A stretch of 54,949 nucleotides of DNA from an uncultured Anaeromyxobacter sp. (GTDB taxonomy: Bacteria; Myxococcota; Myxococcia; Myxococcales; Anaeromyxobacteraceae): positions 1-54,949 of the forward strand of contig CAIOAK010000118.1 in NCBI GenBank assembly GCA_903855945.1, in the 5' to 3' direction. How positions within the stretch are numbered: position 1 is the first letter of the stretch; each line of letters starts with the position of its first letter. The position numbers and the translations under genes are program-made. This document shows, piece after piece, positions 20,347-25,913 of the stretch. Below the pieces are notes generated by a model that worked only from the letters and a program-made list of their open reading frames with translations, made no database searches and was not told the origin of the DNA.

Positions 20347-22059
20347 GTGCTCCGGGAGGCGATCCACGACCTGAACAGGCTGCGGGAGGTGTCCGCGGTC
20401 ATCGCCCGCCACGGCTTCGGGGCGTACCTGGAGCGGGTGAGGCTCGGCGCGGTCGTCCCGCGCCCGGTGGGGGCGCCTTCCGAGGGGGACGTTCCGCCCC
20501 CCGCCGACGGCCGCAATGCCGTCCGGTTCCGGCGGCTCCTCGTCGATCTGGGCCCCACCTACGTGAAGCTCGGACAGCTCCTCTCCAGCCGACCGGACAT
20601 CCTGCCCGCGGCCTGGATCGCCGAGCTGTCGCTCCTCCAGGACTCCTGCGAGCCGGTCCCGGTGGCCGACATCCAGCGGCAGATCGAGCTCGGCCTGGGG
20701 CGCCCCGCCGACGAGGTCTTCGCCTGGCTCGACCCGGTCCCCGTGGCGAGCGCGTCCATCGCCCAGGTCCACCGGGCCCGGACCCACGCGGGGGCCGACG
20801 TCGCGGTGAAGGTGCAGCGACCGGGGGTCCGGGAGCAGTTCGAGTCGGACTTGGGGCTGCTCCAGTACGTCGCCCGGCTCCTCGAGGCGCTCGTGGAGGA
20901 GACGGGGATCTACACCCCGTCCGACATCGTGGAGGAGTTCGACCGGGCCATCCACGAGGAGCTCGACTTCGCGAACGAGGCCCGCAACGCCCGCGACATG
21001 GCGAAGGCCTCCCGCGACCTCCCGTTCGTCGTCGTCCCCGGGGTGCATGCCGAGCTCTCCTCGGCGATGGTGCTCACCCTCGACTTCGTCGACGGGCGAA
21101 AGGTGACCGAACTCGGGGGGCGGGAGGACTTCGACCCCGAGCGGGTGGCGAGGAACATCATCGAGGCGAGCTTCCGGCAGCTCTTCGGGGGCGGGATCTT
21201 CCACGGCGATCCCCACCCCGGGAACATCCTGGCGCTTCCAGGGAATCGCATCGCCTTCCTCGACTTCGGGCTGGTCGGGCGGATCGGCCGGCCGATGCAG
21301 GAGGCCCTCGTCACGCTCCTCGTGGCGGTCGCGCTCCGCGATCCGGACACCGTGGCTCGCGTCCTCTACCGGATCGGGGTCCCCGAGGCCCACACCCCCA
21401 TCACCACGCTCCGGGACGACATCTCCGGCATCCTCGACCGGTACCTGGGACTGAAGCTCGACCAGATCCGCTCCTCCACCCTGCTCACCGACATGCTCGA
21501 CCTGGCGGTGCGTCACAAGATCAAGGTTCCGCGCGAGTACGCGCTGCTCTGCAAGTCGTCGGTGACGGTCGAGGGGCTCATCCGCGGGCTCTACCCCGAA
21601 CTCGACATCATGGAGGTGGGGCTACCCTACGCGAAGGAGATGCTCTTCTCCCGATTCCAGCCGGGCGATCCATCGGGTGCCCTCATGAAGTCGATGCTGA
21701 AGCTGCAGGGGCTCGCCGAGGACGTTCCCGGCCAGCTCTCGCAGATCCTGGCCGACCTCGAGGGGGGGAAGTTCCGGGTCAACGTCCGCTCCGAGGGGAT
21801 CGATCGCCTCGCCGACAACGTGCGGTCGCTCGGATTGACGATCTTCCTCGGACTGCTCGCGAGCGCGCTCGCGCTCGGAGGGCTCTTCGTGGTGGCGCGC
21901 CAGATGGCCGGGTCCCAGGCGATCCTCTTCCTGGGCTTCTCCGCGCTGCTCCTGGCCGGGTTCCTCTTCGGAGCCTCGCTCACGGTCTACTGGCTGGGCG
22001 GCCGGATCCCCAAGCTCTCGCTCCGGAAGCTCATCCACCGCTTCTCCTCCCCCGACTGA
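20347..22059 (+). CDS. ubiB: ABC1/UbiB-family atypical kinase
   Basis: This 570-residue UbiB-like protein supports ubiquinone or isoprenoid-lipid metabolism, probably as an ATPase. Motifs in order: the KxGQ segment PTYVKLGQLLSSRPDILP, the Ala/Ser loop VASASIAQVHRA, VAVKVQRPG (invariant Lys), EELDFANEARNARDMA, the catalytic-loop equivalent GIFHGDPHPGNILAL and the DFG equivalent IAFLDFGLVGRIG. The C-terminus has two transmembrane helices (TIFLGLLASALALGGLFVVA and AILFLGFSALLLAGFLFGAS). The GTG has no Shine-Dalgarno and a -10 six bases upstream. The 3' end overlaps the convergent membrane-protein gene by 73 bases. Confidence 0.93.
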   Translation: MLREAIHDLNRLREVSAVIARHGFGAYLERVRLGAVVPRPVGAPSEGDVPPPADGRNAVRFRRLLVDLGPTYVKLGQLLSSRPDILPAAWIAELSLLQDSCEPVPVADIQRQIELGLGRPADEVFAWLDPVPVASASIAQVHRARTHAGADVAVKVQRPGVREQFESDLGLLQYVARLLEALVEETGIYTPSDIVEEFDRAIHEELDFANEARNARDMAKASRDLPFVVVPGVHAELSSAMVLTLDFVDGRKVTELGGREDFDPERVARNIIEASFRQLFGGGIFHGDPHPGNILALPGNRIAFLDFGLVGRIGRPMQEALVTLLVAVALRDPDTVARVLYRIGVPEAHTPITTLRDDISGILDRYLGLKLDQIRSSTLLTDMLDLAVRHKIKVPREYALLCKSSVTVEGLIRGLYPELDIMEVGLPYAKEMLFSRFQPGDPSGALMKSMLKLQGLAEDVPGQLSQILADLEGGKFRVNVRSEGIDRLADNVRSLGLTIFLGLLASALALGGLFVVARQMAGSQAILFLGFSALLLAGFLFGASLTVYWLGGRIPKLSLRKLIHRFSSPD

Positions 22060-22955
22060 TCCGAGAGGGAGAGCACACCCACCGCGGCGAGCCGCCAGAG
22101 TTCGGCGCCGGCGGCGAGGAGCCCTGCGAGGGCCGCGAGGAGGAGGTTCGGCAGGACGAGGAGTGCGCGCGGTCCGCCGTGCGCCGCCACCCCGAGGGCG
22201 GAGAGAACCCCCTGTGCCGAACCGGCGGCGAGGACGGTCACGAGCCCGATCACCAGGATCGCGAGGAGGAACGCGGCCGGCCTGCGCAGGAAGGAGTCGA
22301 GCCCACGGCGGAGCGCACTCCCGGGCCCTTCTCCTGCCATGGCCGCCCGGGCGACGGCCACGTCTCCGAGCGTGGACAGGGAGCCGGAGAGGAAGGCGGC
22401 ACTCGTGAGGCCGAGGGCGGCCACGAAGGCGGCGGCCGTCGCGCCGGTCGTTCCCTGGATGCGCGCGCCGATCGCGAAGGCGCCGAACAGGGCCGCCAGG
22501 AGCATCCCCCTCCCCGCGAGGTCGAGGGCGAATGCCGCCACCGCGGTGGGGAGGACCCGGTGGAAGCGAAGGGCGGCCCCTTCGGAGAATCTCGGTTCGT
22601 GCGGCCCCCGGCCCGACATCCTCCAGGCCAGGATGGGCGCAGCCCCGGCCACCCATGCCACGCGGAGGGCCCCCCACAGGAGTGCGCCGGCCAGCCAGAG
22701 CCCGAGTGCGACGAAGCGAAATCGCGGCGTCGCCCAGGCCTGGGCGAGGGTCGCGAGGACGCCGGGTACGCCCCCGCCGTGCGAGAGCGACTCCCGGATC
22801 GCGAGCCACGATACGGCGGCCACGAAGGCCGTCCCGGGAAGGGAGAGCAAGCCGCGCAGGAGGGCCACGACGATCCCGAGGACGGCGACCCAGACCTCCC
22901 CGGCCACGCTGCGCAATCCAGCGCCGAGCGCCCTTCCAACCGTCGGATCCCGCAT
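21987..22955 (-). CDS. polytopic membrane protein of unknown function
   Basis: This 322-residue protein has about six hydrophobic segments (e.g. VWVAVLGIVVALLRGLLSLP, FVALGLWLAGALLWGALRVA, GMLLAALFGAFAIGARI, AAAFVAALGLTSAAFLSG, AAFLLAILVIGLVTVLAA and LVLPNLLLAALAGLLAAG). A loop contains SEGAALRFHRVLPT and GSALRRGLDSFLRRPAAF. The pattern resembles poorly characterised membrane proteins common in Myxococcota; I cannot assign a function. ATG 22955 is supported by a well-spaced promoter ending six bases upstream. The last 24 codons run antisense into the ubiB 3' end. Its divergent neighbour is lexA. Confidence 0.72.
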   Translation of the reverse strand: MRDPTVGRALGAGLRSVAGEVWVAVLGIVVALLRGLLSLPGTAFVAAVSWLAIRESLSHGGGVPGVLATLAQAWATPRFRFVALGLWLAGALLWGALRVAWVAGAAPILAWRMSGRGPHEPRFSEGAALRFHRVLPTAVAAFALDLAGRGMLLAALFGAFAIGARIQGTTGATAAAFVAALGLTSAAFLSGSLSTLGDVAVARAAMAGEGPGSALRRGLDSFLRRPAAFLLAILVIGLVTVLAAGSAQGVLSALGVAAHGGPRALLVLPNLLLAALAGLLAAGAELWRLAAVGVLSLSDQSGEEKRWMSFRSESLGIRPPSQ

Positions 22956-22961
22956 GGTCGG

Positions 22962-22990
22962 ACCGTACGCCGAGCCCGGGACCCCGGCAA
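22962..22990 (-). promoter_or_regulatory. promoter of membrane-protein gene, leaderless type
   Basis: On the minus strand TTGCCG (22990-22985), exactly 17 bases, then TACGGT (22967-22962), with the ATG six bases further on. There is no Shine-Dalgarno. Confidence 0.5.
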
Positions 22991-23008
22991 GGACCACCGG
23001 AACGGAAG

Positions 23009-23046
23009 TTGCGTCTGAACGCCCGGGGGGTATACTTGCGTTCAGG
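23009..23046 (+). promoter_or_regulatory. lexA promoter with overlapping LexA operator
   Basis: TTGCGT (23009-23014), 16-base spacer, TATACT (23031-23036). The segment 23030-23046 (GTATACTTGCGTTCAGG) agrees with the published Myxococcus LexA motif CTRHAMRYBYGTTCAGS, as I recall it, at 15 of 17 positions. A second element is inverted upstream: CTGAACGC (23015-23022) and GCGTTCAG (23038-23045) form a perfect 8-bp inverted repeat around the -10. Bound LexA would block its own promoter and nearly cover the Shine-Dalgarno. Confidence 0.65.
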
Positions 23047-23060
23047 AGGAGGTGCCCGCC

Positions 23061-23753
23061 ATGGAAGCCCTTACCGATCGCCAGCTCGAGGTTCTCCGAT
23101 TCATCGCCCGCCAGATCGAGGAGCAGGGCTACCCGCCCACCATCCGCGAGATCGGGGAGGCGCTCGACATCCGCTCCACGAATGGCGTGAACGACCACCT
23201 GAAGGCCCTCGAGCGAAAGGGCTTCCTCACCCGGGACCCCGTGAAGTCCCGCGCACTGATCCCCACCCAGCGTGCCCGGGACGTGCTGACCGGGCGCGGG
23301 GGCCAGGGAGGGCAGGTCATCTCCCTCGCCTCTCGCGCACCGTCCCGCAGCCCTTCGCGACTCGTCGATGTCCCCATCGTGGGGCGAGTGGCAGCGGGTC
23401 AGCCCATCCTCGCCGAGGAGCGGATCGAGGACACCGTCCAGGTAGACTCCTTCTTCCTGGGCGCGGGTCGGAAGGTCTACGGCCTTCGGGTGCAGGGCGA
23501 CTCGATGATCGGCGACGGAATCCTGCCCGGCGACTACATCTTCGTCCGCAAGCAGTTGAACGCCGACGATGGCGACATCGTCGTCGCGATGATCGACGAC
23601 GAGGCCACTGTGAAGAGGGTCTACTTCGAAGGGGACCGGATTCGCTTCCAGCCCTCCAATCCGCGCATGGCCCCCATCTACGTGCGGGAGTCGGACTTCC
23701 GCAGCACGATGATCCTCGGCATCGTCGTCGGCATCTACCGCCGGCTGAAGTAG
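23061..23753 (+). CDS. lexA: LexA SOS repressor / autoprotease
   Basis: This 230-residue LexA represses DNA-damage genes until RecA filaments trigger self-cleavage. The N-terminal winged helix has LTDRQLEVLRFIARQIEEQG, YPPTIREIGEAL and GVNDHLKALERKG. The cleavage bond is Ala112-Gly113 (GRVAAGQPI); catalytic Ser148 lies in VQGDSMIGDGI and Lys185 in ATVKRVYF. The linker is slightly long (PSRSPSR). ATG 23061 is chosen over GTG 23052 because AGGAGGAGG at 23044-23052 is correctly spaced for the ATG and overlaps the GTG. The overlapping operator predicts autoregulation. Confidence 0.97.
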   Translation: MEALTDRQLEVLRFIARQIEEQGYPPTIREIGEALDIRSTNGVNDHLKALERKGFLTRDPVKSRALIPTQRARDVLTGRGGQGGQVISLASRAPSRSPSRLVDVPIVGRVAAGQPILAEERIEDTVQVDSFFLGAGRKVYGLRVQGDSMIGDGILPGDYIFVRKQLNADDGDIVVAMIDDEATVKRVYFEGDRIRFQPSNPRMAPIYVRESDFRSTMILGIVVGIYRRLK

Positions 23754-23766
23754 GCTGGTGCCTCGA

Positions 23767-25026
23767 CTACCCGCGGGTCTTGGCCTGGCGGATGTACCGG
23801 TCGAGGTCCTCCCGGTCGATGAGGGAGAGGATCTCGATCGTGTTCTGCCGCTCCGGACGCCGGTAGATGAGCCGGACGTCGGTCGCCACCCGGACCCGGT
23901 AGTAGCCGGGGAGCCCCTCGAGGGGAATCGCCCGCAGGCTCGGGTGGCGATGATCGAGCGCGAGGAGGTGCGCCTGCTTGAATGCGCCCCGCTGGATGCG
24001 CCGGTCCCACCGATCGAGCGAGTCGTAGAACTCCCGGGTGTATACGGGGAAGAGCCATGTCTCCGCGTCCCCCGGCTCGGTATCCGCCGGCGCCGCCGGA
24101 CCCGGTGAAGCGGAGTGGATCCCCTGCTTCCCGGCGAGCGCGCGGGAGAGTTCCTCCGACAGCTCCCGCTCCCGCTCGCGCGCCCGCTCCAGCCGGGTCT
24201 CGAGGGCGCCGACCCGGGCCGACAGGTCCTTCGATTCGACCCGGGCGCGATGTGCCTCCTGGGTAGCGTCGAGGGCGCGAACGGCCTCCAGCTCGCTCCG
24301 GGTGGCGGCCACCTCCTTGCGCGCCATCCCCAGTTCCTCCCGCGCGCGTGCGGACTCCTCGACGGCGCGGGACTCCGCCGCACGAGCCTCCCGGAGCGCT
24401 CCCTGGAGCTTCTCCCGCTGCTCCTCGCTCCTGCGGCGGGCCTCGGCCGCGCTCGCCTCCGCGCCCTCCTCCGATTGCCGGAGCTGCTGCTCCTTTCGCG
24501 CCAGGGCCCCGGCGAGGAGTTCGGCCCGGGCCGCCGGATCCTCCTCGGCGGACGCCTGCGGAAGGCTCCCCTCCGATGGAGCCTCGGGGGGGGCGAAGTA
24601 GTGCCTGGCGAGATCGTCCAGGAGGGGGTTCGCGGTCTTGCGGACCGCCGGATTCCGGTCGGAGAGAACCCGCCACAGGGCGAGGGCCACCGGTGCGTCG
24701 CCGGCGCCCACGTCGAGCAGGTCGTCGGCGCACTCCGGGTCGAGCTCCAGCAGGGAGAGAGGGGGACGTTCGAATACCTTCTCGAGCGCTGCCAGGACGG
24801 CGCGTCCGGCAACCGGGTTCGCACGGACCTCGTCGGCGATGACGTCGCAGCGCTCCACGTCTCCGAGGGACTCGCTCCGGAAGCCGGGGATCGAGAGCCG
24901 CTGCTCCTTGACGAGCGTGCGCGTCTCCTCGGGCGTGAGCGCGACGAAGAGAAAGACGGAGAGCTGGTCCCGCGACAGCTCGGCGAGCGGCGCATCCTGC
25001 ACCTGGGAGGGAACGCCCTTCGCCAT
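23767..25026 (-). CDS. coiled-coil protein with C-terminal RelE/ParE-fold domain
   Basis: This 419-residue protein has an unusual layout. Residues 1-135 are a helical domain of unknown type (ELSRDQLSVFLFVALTPEET, VFERPPLSLLEL, VLSDRNPAVRKTANPLLDDL). Residues about 165-310 are a long charged coiled coil. Residues 325-419 resemble RelE/ParE toxins: LDRWDRRIQRGAFKQ, ALDHRHPSLRAIPLEG, YYRVRVATDVRLIYRRPE and TIEILSLIDREDLDRYIRQA. In ordinary TA loci this ~95-residue unit is a separate toxin beside an antitoxin; here none is seen. It follows the phosphoesterase gene by 12 bases and has no Shine-Dalgarno; the gap holds an imperfect palindrome (25027-25042). A tethered toxin or a repurposed mRNA-binding domain are both possible. 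Confidence 0.8.
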   Translation of the reverse strand: MAKGVPSQVQDAPLAELSRDQLSVFLFVALTPEETRTLVKEQRLSIPGFRSESLGDVERCDVIADEVRANPVAGRAVLAALEKVFERPPLSLLELDPECADDLLDVGAGDAPVALALWRVLSDRNPAVRKTANPLLDDLARHYFAPPEAPSEGSLPQASAEEDPAARAELLAGALARKEQQLRQSEEGAEASAAEARRRSEEQREKLQGALREARAAESRAVEESARAREELGMARKEVAATRSELEAVRALDATQEAHRARVESKDLSARVGALETRLERARERERELSEELSRALAGKQGIHSASPGPAAPADTEPGDAETWLFPVYTREFYDSLDRWDRRIQRGAFKQAHLLALDHRHPSLRAIPLEGLPGYYRVRVATDVRLIYRRPERQNTIEILSLIDREDLDRYIRQAKTRG

Positions 25027-25038
25027 TTGACCGACCGT

Positions 25039-25875
25039 TCAATCCAGCGGAGGGAACACGGGCCGGACCGACCGGATACCGCCCCGGTCCACCTCGTACA
25101 CGTAGCCGCGAGCCCGGCGCACCGGCACGTCCGAGACGCGCGAGGCCGACCCGGCGCAGAGGACCGGCGTGGGGCCGGCGGCCCCGGGGATGTCGATGCG
25201 GAAGGCGCAGTGCCGGTGGCCGTGAAGGACGCCGGCGACCCGAACGTCCGACACCATCCGGATCACCTTGTCGGCGTCGAGAAGCGGCATGTGCGCCACC
25301 ATGGCATCGGAGCGGATGCGTTCCCGGGGCAGGATGAGGTGGTGGTGGAGGGCGAGAAGGACCGCCCTTCCCTCCTTCACCTGTTCCCGCACCAGCTCCC
25401 GGCAGGCCTGGAGCTGGCTCGACCCGAGCATGCCCGGGGTCTCGTGGGGGTCCTCGCCGTACTGGGAGCTGTCGAGCGCGACGATGGCCACCTCGGGCGA
25501 CGGAAGGGCGGCGAACGGATAGGTCGCCTCCGCGACGCGCATGCCCTTTCCGTCGGGCCCCACCATGCGAAGAAAGCGCGCCGTCTTCACCGACTCGGCG
25601 GTCCACACGTCGTGGTTGCCCGGAACGATCGTGAGCTTTCCCGCGTCGGCGAAGCGGCGAAGCAGCTTCGCGGCCCGCTCAAATTCGCTCGCCTCCGCGG
25701 AAAGGGTCAGGTCACCGGTGACCACGAGGTGATCGATGCCGGCCTGCTCGAGCCCCTCGAGGACGCGCTGCGCGAGCCGGACCGAGTACTTGTCGCAGTC
25801 CCGGGGAACGTGGCCGTTCCGCGGGTATCGGCCGCGATCGGAGAGGTGGAGGTCGGAGACGTGGCCGAGGCGCAA
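25039..25875 (-). CDS. calcineurin-like metallophosphoesterase
   Basis: This 278-residue metallophosphoesterase has the full dinuclear metal set: D and H in LGHVSDLHLSDRG, D in LVVTGDLTLSAEA, N-H in TIVPGNHDVW, H in LLALHHHLILP and the GHxH in VAGVLHGHRHCAF. The family includes cyclic-nucleotide phosphodiesterases and other phosphoesterases; the substrate cannot be fixed. The TTG at 25875 is the only reasonable start, because the metal motif begins six residues later. A very good promoter (TTGACG-N17-TAGCAT) lies nine bases upstream. It is divergent from lon and cotranscribed with the coiled-coil/RelE-fold gene. Confidence 0.9.
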   Translation of the reverse strand: MRLGHVSDLHLSDRGRYPRNGHVPRDCDKYSVRLAQRVLEGLEQAGIDHLVVTGDLTLSAEASEFERAAKLLRRFADAGKLTIVPGNHDVWTAESVKTARFLRMVGPDGKGMRVAEATYPFAALPSPEVAIVALDSSQYGEDPHETPGMLGSSQLQACRELVREQVKEGRAVLLALHHHLILPRERIRSDAMVAHMPLLDADKVIRMVSDVRVAGVLHGHRHCAFRIDIPGAAGPTPVLCAGSASRVSDVPVRRARGYVYEVDRGGIRSVRPVFPPLD

Positions 25876-25884
25876 TCGAAAGGG

Positions 25885-25913
25885 ATGCTATCGACCGGCG
25901 GCTGGGGCGTCAA
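25885..25913 (-). promoter_or_regulatory. promoter of phosphoesterase operon
   Basis: On the minus strand TTGACG (25913-25908), 17-base spacer, TAGCAT (25890-25885); the TTG start follows after nine bases. Confidence 0.55.

Follow-up and report, generated by a model that had tools for sequence, protein, structure and literature searches.

The window analysed here is the whole stretch of 54,949 nucleotides from an uncultured Anaeromyxobacter sp. (contig CAIOAK010000118.1), and the features at the locus under study are listed in Table 1. The central gene is an open reading frame for a protein of 419 residues, at the coordinates of the original prediction, which consists of a helical N-terminal domain, a long helix and a C-terminal domain with a predicted RelE fold. 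The phosphoesterase reading frame is also as described, its stop codon lying 12 bases before the start of the RelE-fold gene. On the other side, 13 bases separate the end of the RelE-fold gene from the end of the convergent lexA, and with gaps of 12 and 13 bases no adjacent antitoxin gene can fit in the window. The two genes had been proposed to share one strong promoter; a single promoter-like site is indeed present just before the phosphoesterase (chance expectation 0.1), but with nine of the 12 positions matched the word strong is an overstatement. The phosphoesterase partly resembles NF053862, an anti-phage phosphoesterase family of NCBIfam (E 5e-26), with a score far under the cut-off of this family. 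A 1002-residue open frame (21987-24995, minus strand) overlaps the RelE-fold gene on the same strand; this and the other long open frames there look like an effect of high G+C content.

Table 1. Positions, in the window, of the RelE-fold gene, its parts and its neighbours
Feature	Positions	Strand	Basis
Whole gene: helical N-terminal domain, long helix and RelE-fold C-terminal domain	23767..25026	-	Open reading frame; homologues
Predicted RelE-fold domain, residues 323-419	23770..24060	-	AlphaFold2 topology; Foldseek and VIA matches to RelE/YoeB/YafQ; conservation
Putative active-site codons R377, R379, R385, R405, Y411	23794..23898	-	Alignments to E. coli RelE chain 4v7k
Long single helix, residues 164-300, probable coiled coil	24127..24537	-	AlphaFold2; amphipathic periodicity
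Acidic, predicted all-helical N-terminal domain, residues 8-146	24589..25005	-	AlphaFold2; pI
Calcineurin-like phosphoesterase, codirectional neighbour, not a conserved partner	25039..25875	-	PF00149, E 2e-10
Promoter-like site upstream of the phosphoesterase and RelE-fold genes	25885..25913	-	TTGACG-17-TAGCAT, 9/12
lexA, convergent neighbour	23052..23753	+	Open reading frame; family synteny

Predicted structure and putative active-site residues

A RelE/ParE-like pattern had been recognized in residues 325-419, and the motifs quoted for it are present. When the isolated domain is compared with sequence profiles, it matches PF05016 ParE_toxin with E 9.5e-4 (20.1 bits) and TIGR02385 RelE_StbE with E 1.6e-3 (18.9 bits), which is under the respective cut-offs of 23 and 27.9 bits, these being classification thresholds and not biological features; the best values among the family members are E 1.8e-5 to PF05016 and E 2.5e-5 to PF24732. 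Taken alone, the profiles are weak and suggestive, and it is the structure prediction that supports the RelE fold strongly. In the AlphaFold2 model of the protein, built with 33 homologues, the elements β326-329, α331-337, α342-357, β375-381, β384-389, β396-404 and α405-418 (pLDDT mostly high) follow each other as β-α-α-β-β-β-α over residues 326-418, which is the order of elements of RelE (PMC11980606) and the BECR fold. The first Foldseek matches in the PDB are Thermus RelE (E 3.5e-4), archaeal RelE, mycobacterial RelE and YafQ, and VIA-align superimposes 80-82 residues on YoeB/RelE toxins with an rmsd of 2.1 and Z up to 11.4; ribosome-bound RelE (4v7j, Z 9.7) and ribosome-bound Cami1 (8phj, Z 9.6) are also among its matches. 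The best fold matches are all toxins of the RelE/YoeB/YafQ/HigB type, with ParE lower in the lists, and a profile of the domain searched against the PDB sequences retrieves E. coli RelE entries only (best E 0.019). Residues 323-419 are predicted to fold as a RelE toxin, in agreement with the original prediction as regards the superfamily fold. The domain, of about 95 residues, is basic in all 28 homologues measured.

The residues K52, K54, R61, R81 and Y87 of E. coli RelE (chain 4v7k) correspond to R377, R379, R385, R405 and Y411 of this protein when mapped by a weak-scoring sequence alignment (E 0.019), as distinct from a residue-level structural superposition. Among 20 homologues from across the order, all four arginines are invariant, and position 411 is tyrosine in 17 and tryptophan in three. 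In E. coli RelE, the substitutions R61A, R81A and Y87A lower cleavage significantly and K52A and K54A do not (PMC2807027), and the equivalents R65, R85 and Y89 of RelE1 of M. tuberculosis are required for toxicity (PMC12620021). The residues equivalent to R61, R81 and Y87 of this RelE-type, ribosome-dependent RNase are thus present by alignment. Two further arginines of RelE, R45 and R83, are replaced by the acidic residues E370 and D407, and D404, E406 and D407, which surround R405 in a DRED stretch, are invariant in the same 20 homologues. It is possible that these acidic residues weaken or change RNA cleavage.

The helix that precedes the RelE-fold domain is predicted by AlphaFold2 as one helix of 137 residues (164-300) with high pLDDT. 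Its amphipathic periodicity is attained in 1.6% of shuffled sequences, a clean 3.5-residue signal being absent, and its composition together with the amphipathic period makes a coiled coil likely. The coiled coil of about 150 residues that had been proposed is therefore retained as a long helix fused to a RelE fold, slightly shorter than stated, its coiled-coil nature being a deduction.

The N-terminal domain had been described as helical, and this agrees with the AlphaFold2 prediction, in which residues 8-146 are all-helical, with a pLDDT of 90.8 when modelled alone. It has no significant match among PDB structures; the best VIA match is a segment of FAN1 (Z 4.9), followed by death-fold and Bcl-2 structures (Z 2-3.5), all of which are within the noise and do not identify the domain. 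HEAT families of Pfam match the N-terminal part of three of 33 homologues, and no antitoxin family matches it. The domain is acidic (pI 4.3-5.1) in all 28 homologues measured, and an acidic N-terminal domain with a basic RelE domain would suit electrostatic restraint in cis, which is not a proof of it. The overall pTM of the model is low (0.42), so that it gives no support for packing of the N-terminal part on the RelE domain.

Distribution, descent and neighbourhood

A homologue of the protein is encoded in 38 of the 60 related genomes, a number that includes its own genome. Scanning 84,980 species genomes for a pattern gives 34 loci, in genomes named Myxococcales, Anaeromyxobacter, Myxococcaceae or (Delta)proteobacteria, and in 195 Myxococcota genomes a profile of the full length finds 43 and one of the domain 42. 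The Myxococcota matches lie nearly all within one order, the Myxococcales, which are a group of soil bacteria, and they belong to several families of it; the fusion is thus not confined to this genome, the outcome that had been named as counting against the original prediction. Most Myxococcaceae are without the gene, which shows that it is not essential across the order. In the Anaeromyxobacteraceae, the family of the window, 21 of the 23 other genomes carry the gene, and the two genomes without it (G017 and G023) also lack the neighbouring LexA, so that the locus is probably absent from these assemblies and a true absence of the gene is not accepted. One homologue (L080; G059:C734:439-1599) has an in-frame TAG, which reflects either decay of this copy or a fault in the assembly. 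We found no published description of this fusion in a search of open-access full text.

In a maximum-likelihood tree, the families f1, f9 and f7 are each set apart from all others by a fully supported branch. The fusion is chromosomal and vertically inherited in the Myxococcales. No relative of the RelE-fold domain occurs in the plasmid, phage and viral-contig collections searched, which speaks against a recent mobile or phage origin. A canonical RelE-Phd pair of the same genome (L002, 1223-1489 and 1459-1752, minus strand; PF05016 and PF02604) was used as a control, and homologues of its toxin were found in none of the 23 family relatives.

Averaged across the order, identity to the window protein is 79% in the RelE domain, 41% in the N-terminal domain and 34% in the helix. 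Within the family the RelE domain is 80-93% identical; in six of nine pairs this identity exceeds that of LexA, in most pairs it is lower than that of Lon, and the dN/dS of the domain is 0.02-0.10 in three close pairs. The RelE domain is under strong purifying selection, with a constraint comparable to that of LexA. Free toxin genes do not usually evolve under such constraint, which resembles that of a protein with a fixed, highly conserved target.

The gene order in the Anaeromyxobacteraceae is lon, the phosphoesterase, often a gene of about 304 residues, the RelE-fold gene, lexA and a ubiB-like kinase. The intervening 304-residue gene has no Pfam match and separates the RelE-fold gene from the phosphoesterase gene in most loci of the family (for example L029, 4990-5904, plus strand), but it is not found in the genus of the window. 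In one congener, an additional open frame that codes for a secreted lipoprotein of the esterase-like kind separates lexA from the RelE-fold gene (L023, 7289-8353, minus strand). None of lon, the phosphoesterase, the 304-residue gene, lexA and the ubiB-like kinase was found near the homologues of other Myxococcales families, where the neighbours are a short-chain dehydrogenase accompanied by an iron-sulphur assembly protein, a metallo-beta-lactamase-fold protein, an ABC transporter, a HAD hydrolase, a kinase and a UvrD helicase. Because the neighbours differ between families, there is no constant partner, and the phosphoesterase is a local neighbour. The claim that the phosphoesterase is the partner gene is not supported: it adjoins only in the Anaeromyxobacteraceae, often with a further gene in between, so that it is probably not a functional partner and a conserved phosphoesterase-RelE operon is rejected. 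A functional link to LexA or Lon via the neighbourhood is likewise rejected, their adjacency being specific to the family. The absence of an adjacent antitoxin gene is supported by the short gaps in the window and by the fact that no small conserved neighbour recurs across families, the neighbours examined elsewhere being unrelated enzymes. The protein also differs from the small, single-domain toxins of type II modules, having 419 residues in a fusion that is conserved across the order. PADLOC assigns the RelE domain to no known defence family, and its matches to the full protein are low-scoring coiled-coil matches.

Possible function of the RelE-fold protein

From the sequence comparisons and the models, we favour, with moderate confidence, the reading that a RelE/ParE superfamily member has here been domesticated, with a RelE-type domain that would act on the ribosome or on mRNA held in a larger, antitoxin-free protein. 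The original prediction had offered a self-restrained toxin or a domestic factor; the vertical inheritance and the strong purifying selection favour the domestic role, and the retained active-site residues leave room for a nuclease. As the likeliest mechanism, the basic, RelE-type C-terminal domain would enter the A site of the ribosome, or bind an RNA site of comparable conservation, and there cut or hold mRNA. The long helix would probably dimerise or position the RelE domain, and the acidic N-terminal domain may restrain it in cis or target it until a condition arises, such as stalled or stressed translation. We consider it rather unlikely, on present predictions, that the protein is a housekeeping translation factor of the Myxococcales, that is, an A-site endonuclease of the RelE type on a coiled-coil arm, controlled by a helical sensor and serving in normal physiology, for example in clearing stalled or stressed ribosomes, rather than a toxin of a toxin-antitoxin pair.

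It is conceivable, although somewhat doubtful, that cutting has been lost and that the RelE fold is a noncatalytic remnant, retained within a structural coiled-coil protein as a module that binds ribosomes, RNA or protein. E370 and D407 in the places of R45 and R83, and the invariant DRED stretch around R405, point in this direction, and long vertical inheritance without an antitoxin suits a harmless protein; in a SEC-C sister family, described below, the tyrosine is replaced in six of six members and the position is nonaromatic in four. The arginines matching R61 and R81, however, are invariant and are kept in the sister family also, and the tyrosine is nearly invariant in the homologues. As judged from the alignments and the models, an active, restrained endonuclease seems slightly more likely than a binder that does not cut.

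A type II toxin whose antitoxin is encoded elsewhere, or in the same chain as a fused toxin-antitoxin, is improbable. Fused toxin-antitoxin genes are known (PMC11980606), and the RelE fold and the acidic N-terminal domain would fit such a protein, but the N-terminal part matches no antitoxin family, the 12- and 13-base gaps leave no adjacent antitoxin, no small neighbour is conserved across families, and the vertical, nonmobile distribution differs from that of the real RelE-Phd pair of this genome. Action of the ParE kind, on DNA gyrase or another DNA enzyme, with the lexA neighbourhood as a link to DNA damage, is highly improbable: ParE has the same fold, lower in the fold lists, and lexA is convergent within the family, whereas the PDB sequence matches are to RelE only, the RNase-type residues are kept and the lexA linkage is not found outside the Anaeromyxobacteraceae. 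Both the hidden toxin-antitoxin pair and the gyrase target are well behind the nuclease and the binder.

To our knowledge, RelE-family domains have been studied almost only as toxins of mobile, patchily distributed toxin-antitoxin pairs. The domain described here is a long-inherited RelE-type domain with a constraint like that of LexA, with its active-site residues kept by alignment and with no adjacent antitoxin, and from these comparisons and the models it seems that a toxin domain has been recruited for a regular task of the cell. If it cuts mRNA in the A site in a controlled manner, it would show a toxin fold turning into an ordinary nuclease of the cell; a domain that only binds would provide a natural, nontoxic RelE for dissecting the lethality of RelE. 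Both outcomes are directly testable in culturable Anaeromyxobacter.

Comparison with known systems

The domain resembles E. coli RelE and the RelE branch of PF05016 (BECR fold) in its predicted fold, in its active-site arginines and tyrosine and in being a basic domain of about 95 residues. Unlike E. coli RelE, it forms the end of a 419-residue protein whose gene is chromosomal, descends vertically and has no antitoxin gene next to it, and its scores do not reach the cut-offs of Pfam and NCBIfam. The motifs HPSLR and VRV are common to it and to PF24732 ParE_like and small, stand-alone proteins of the HPSL type, and PF24732 matches 18 of 20 homologues, weakly. An example of the stand-alone proteins, a PF24732 protein with both motifs, has 87 residues (L092, 1269-1532, minus strand) and is, unlike the window protein, small and single-domain; it may be related to the source from which the fused domain came.

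In the survey of Gerdes (2025), many multidomain BECR-fold proteins without an identifiable antitoxin are set aside, and neither Myxococcota nor coiled coils are mentioned in its main text (PMC11980606). The window protein, with a RelE/ParE domain inside a multidomain protein, falls in this class, which is acknowledged but not analysed there. The nearest working precedent is Cami1, a CARF-RelE fusion which, once activated, cuts mRNA in the A site (PMC11229360). Both have a C-terminal RelE domain in a larger, antitoxin-free protein, and Cami1 is a precedent for control by the fused part. Cami1, however, has a CARF regulator and a type III CRISPR context, whereas the N-terminal part here is predicted to be all-helical and not Rossmann-like as in CARF, and the neighbours are lon, the phosphoesterase and lexA or, outside the family, other unrelated genes.

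A sister family of about 690 residues, found in six Myxococcota genomes (L091, 1943-4018, plus strand; L094-L099), consists of a helical solenoid, a SEC-C motif, a coil and a diverged RelE-like C-terminal domain. It seemingly does not overlap in its occurrence with the RelE-fold gene, but six genomes are too few for this to indicate mutual exclusion. Like the window protein, it has a helical N-terminal part, a predicted coil and a RelE-like C-terminal domain with the two active-site arginines matching R385 and R405; at the tyrosine position, two members have tryptophan. Unlike in the window protein, the N-terminal part is larger and carries the SEC-C motif, and the C-terminal domain is much less conserved. 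The arrangement of a helical part, a coil and a RelE-like domain therefore exists in two forms, and if the window protein were a housekeeping factor, the SEC-C family would represent the same principle in another form.
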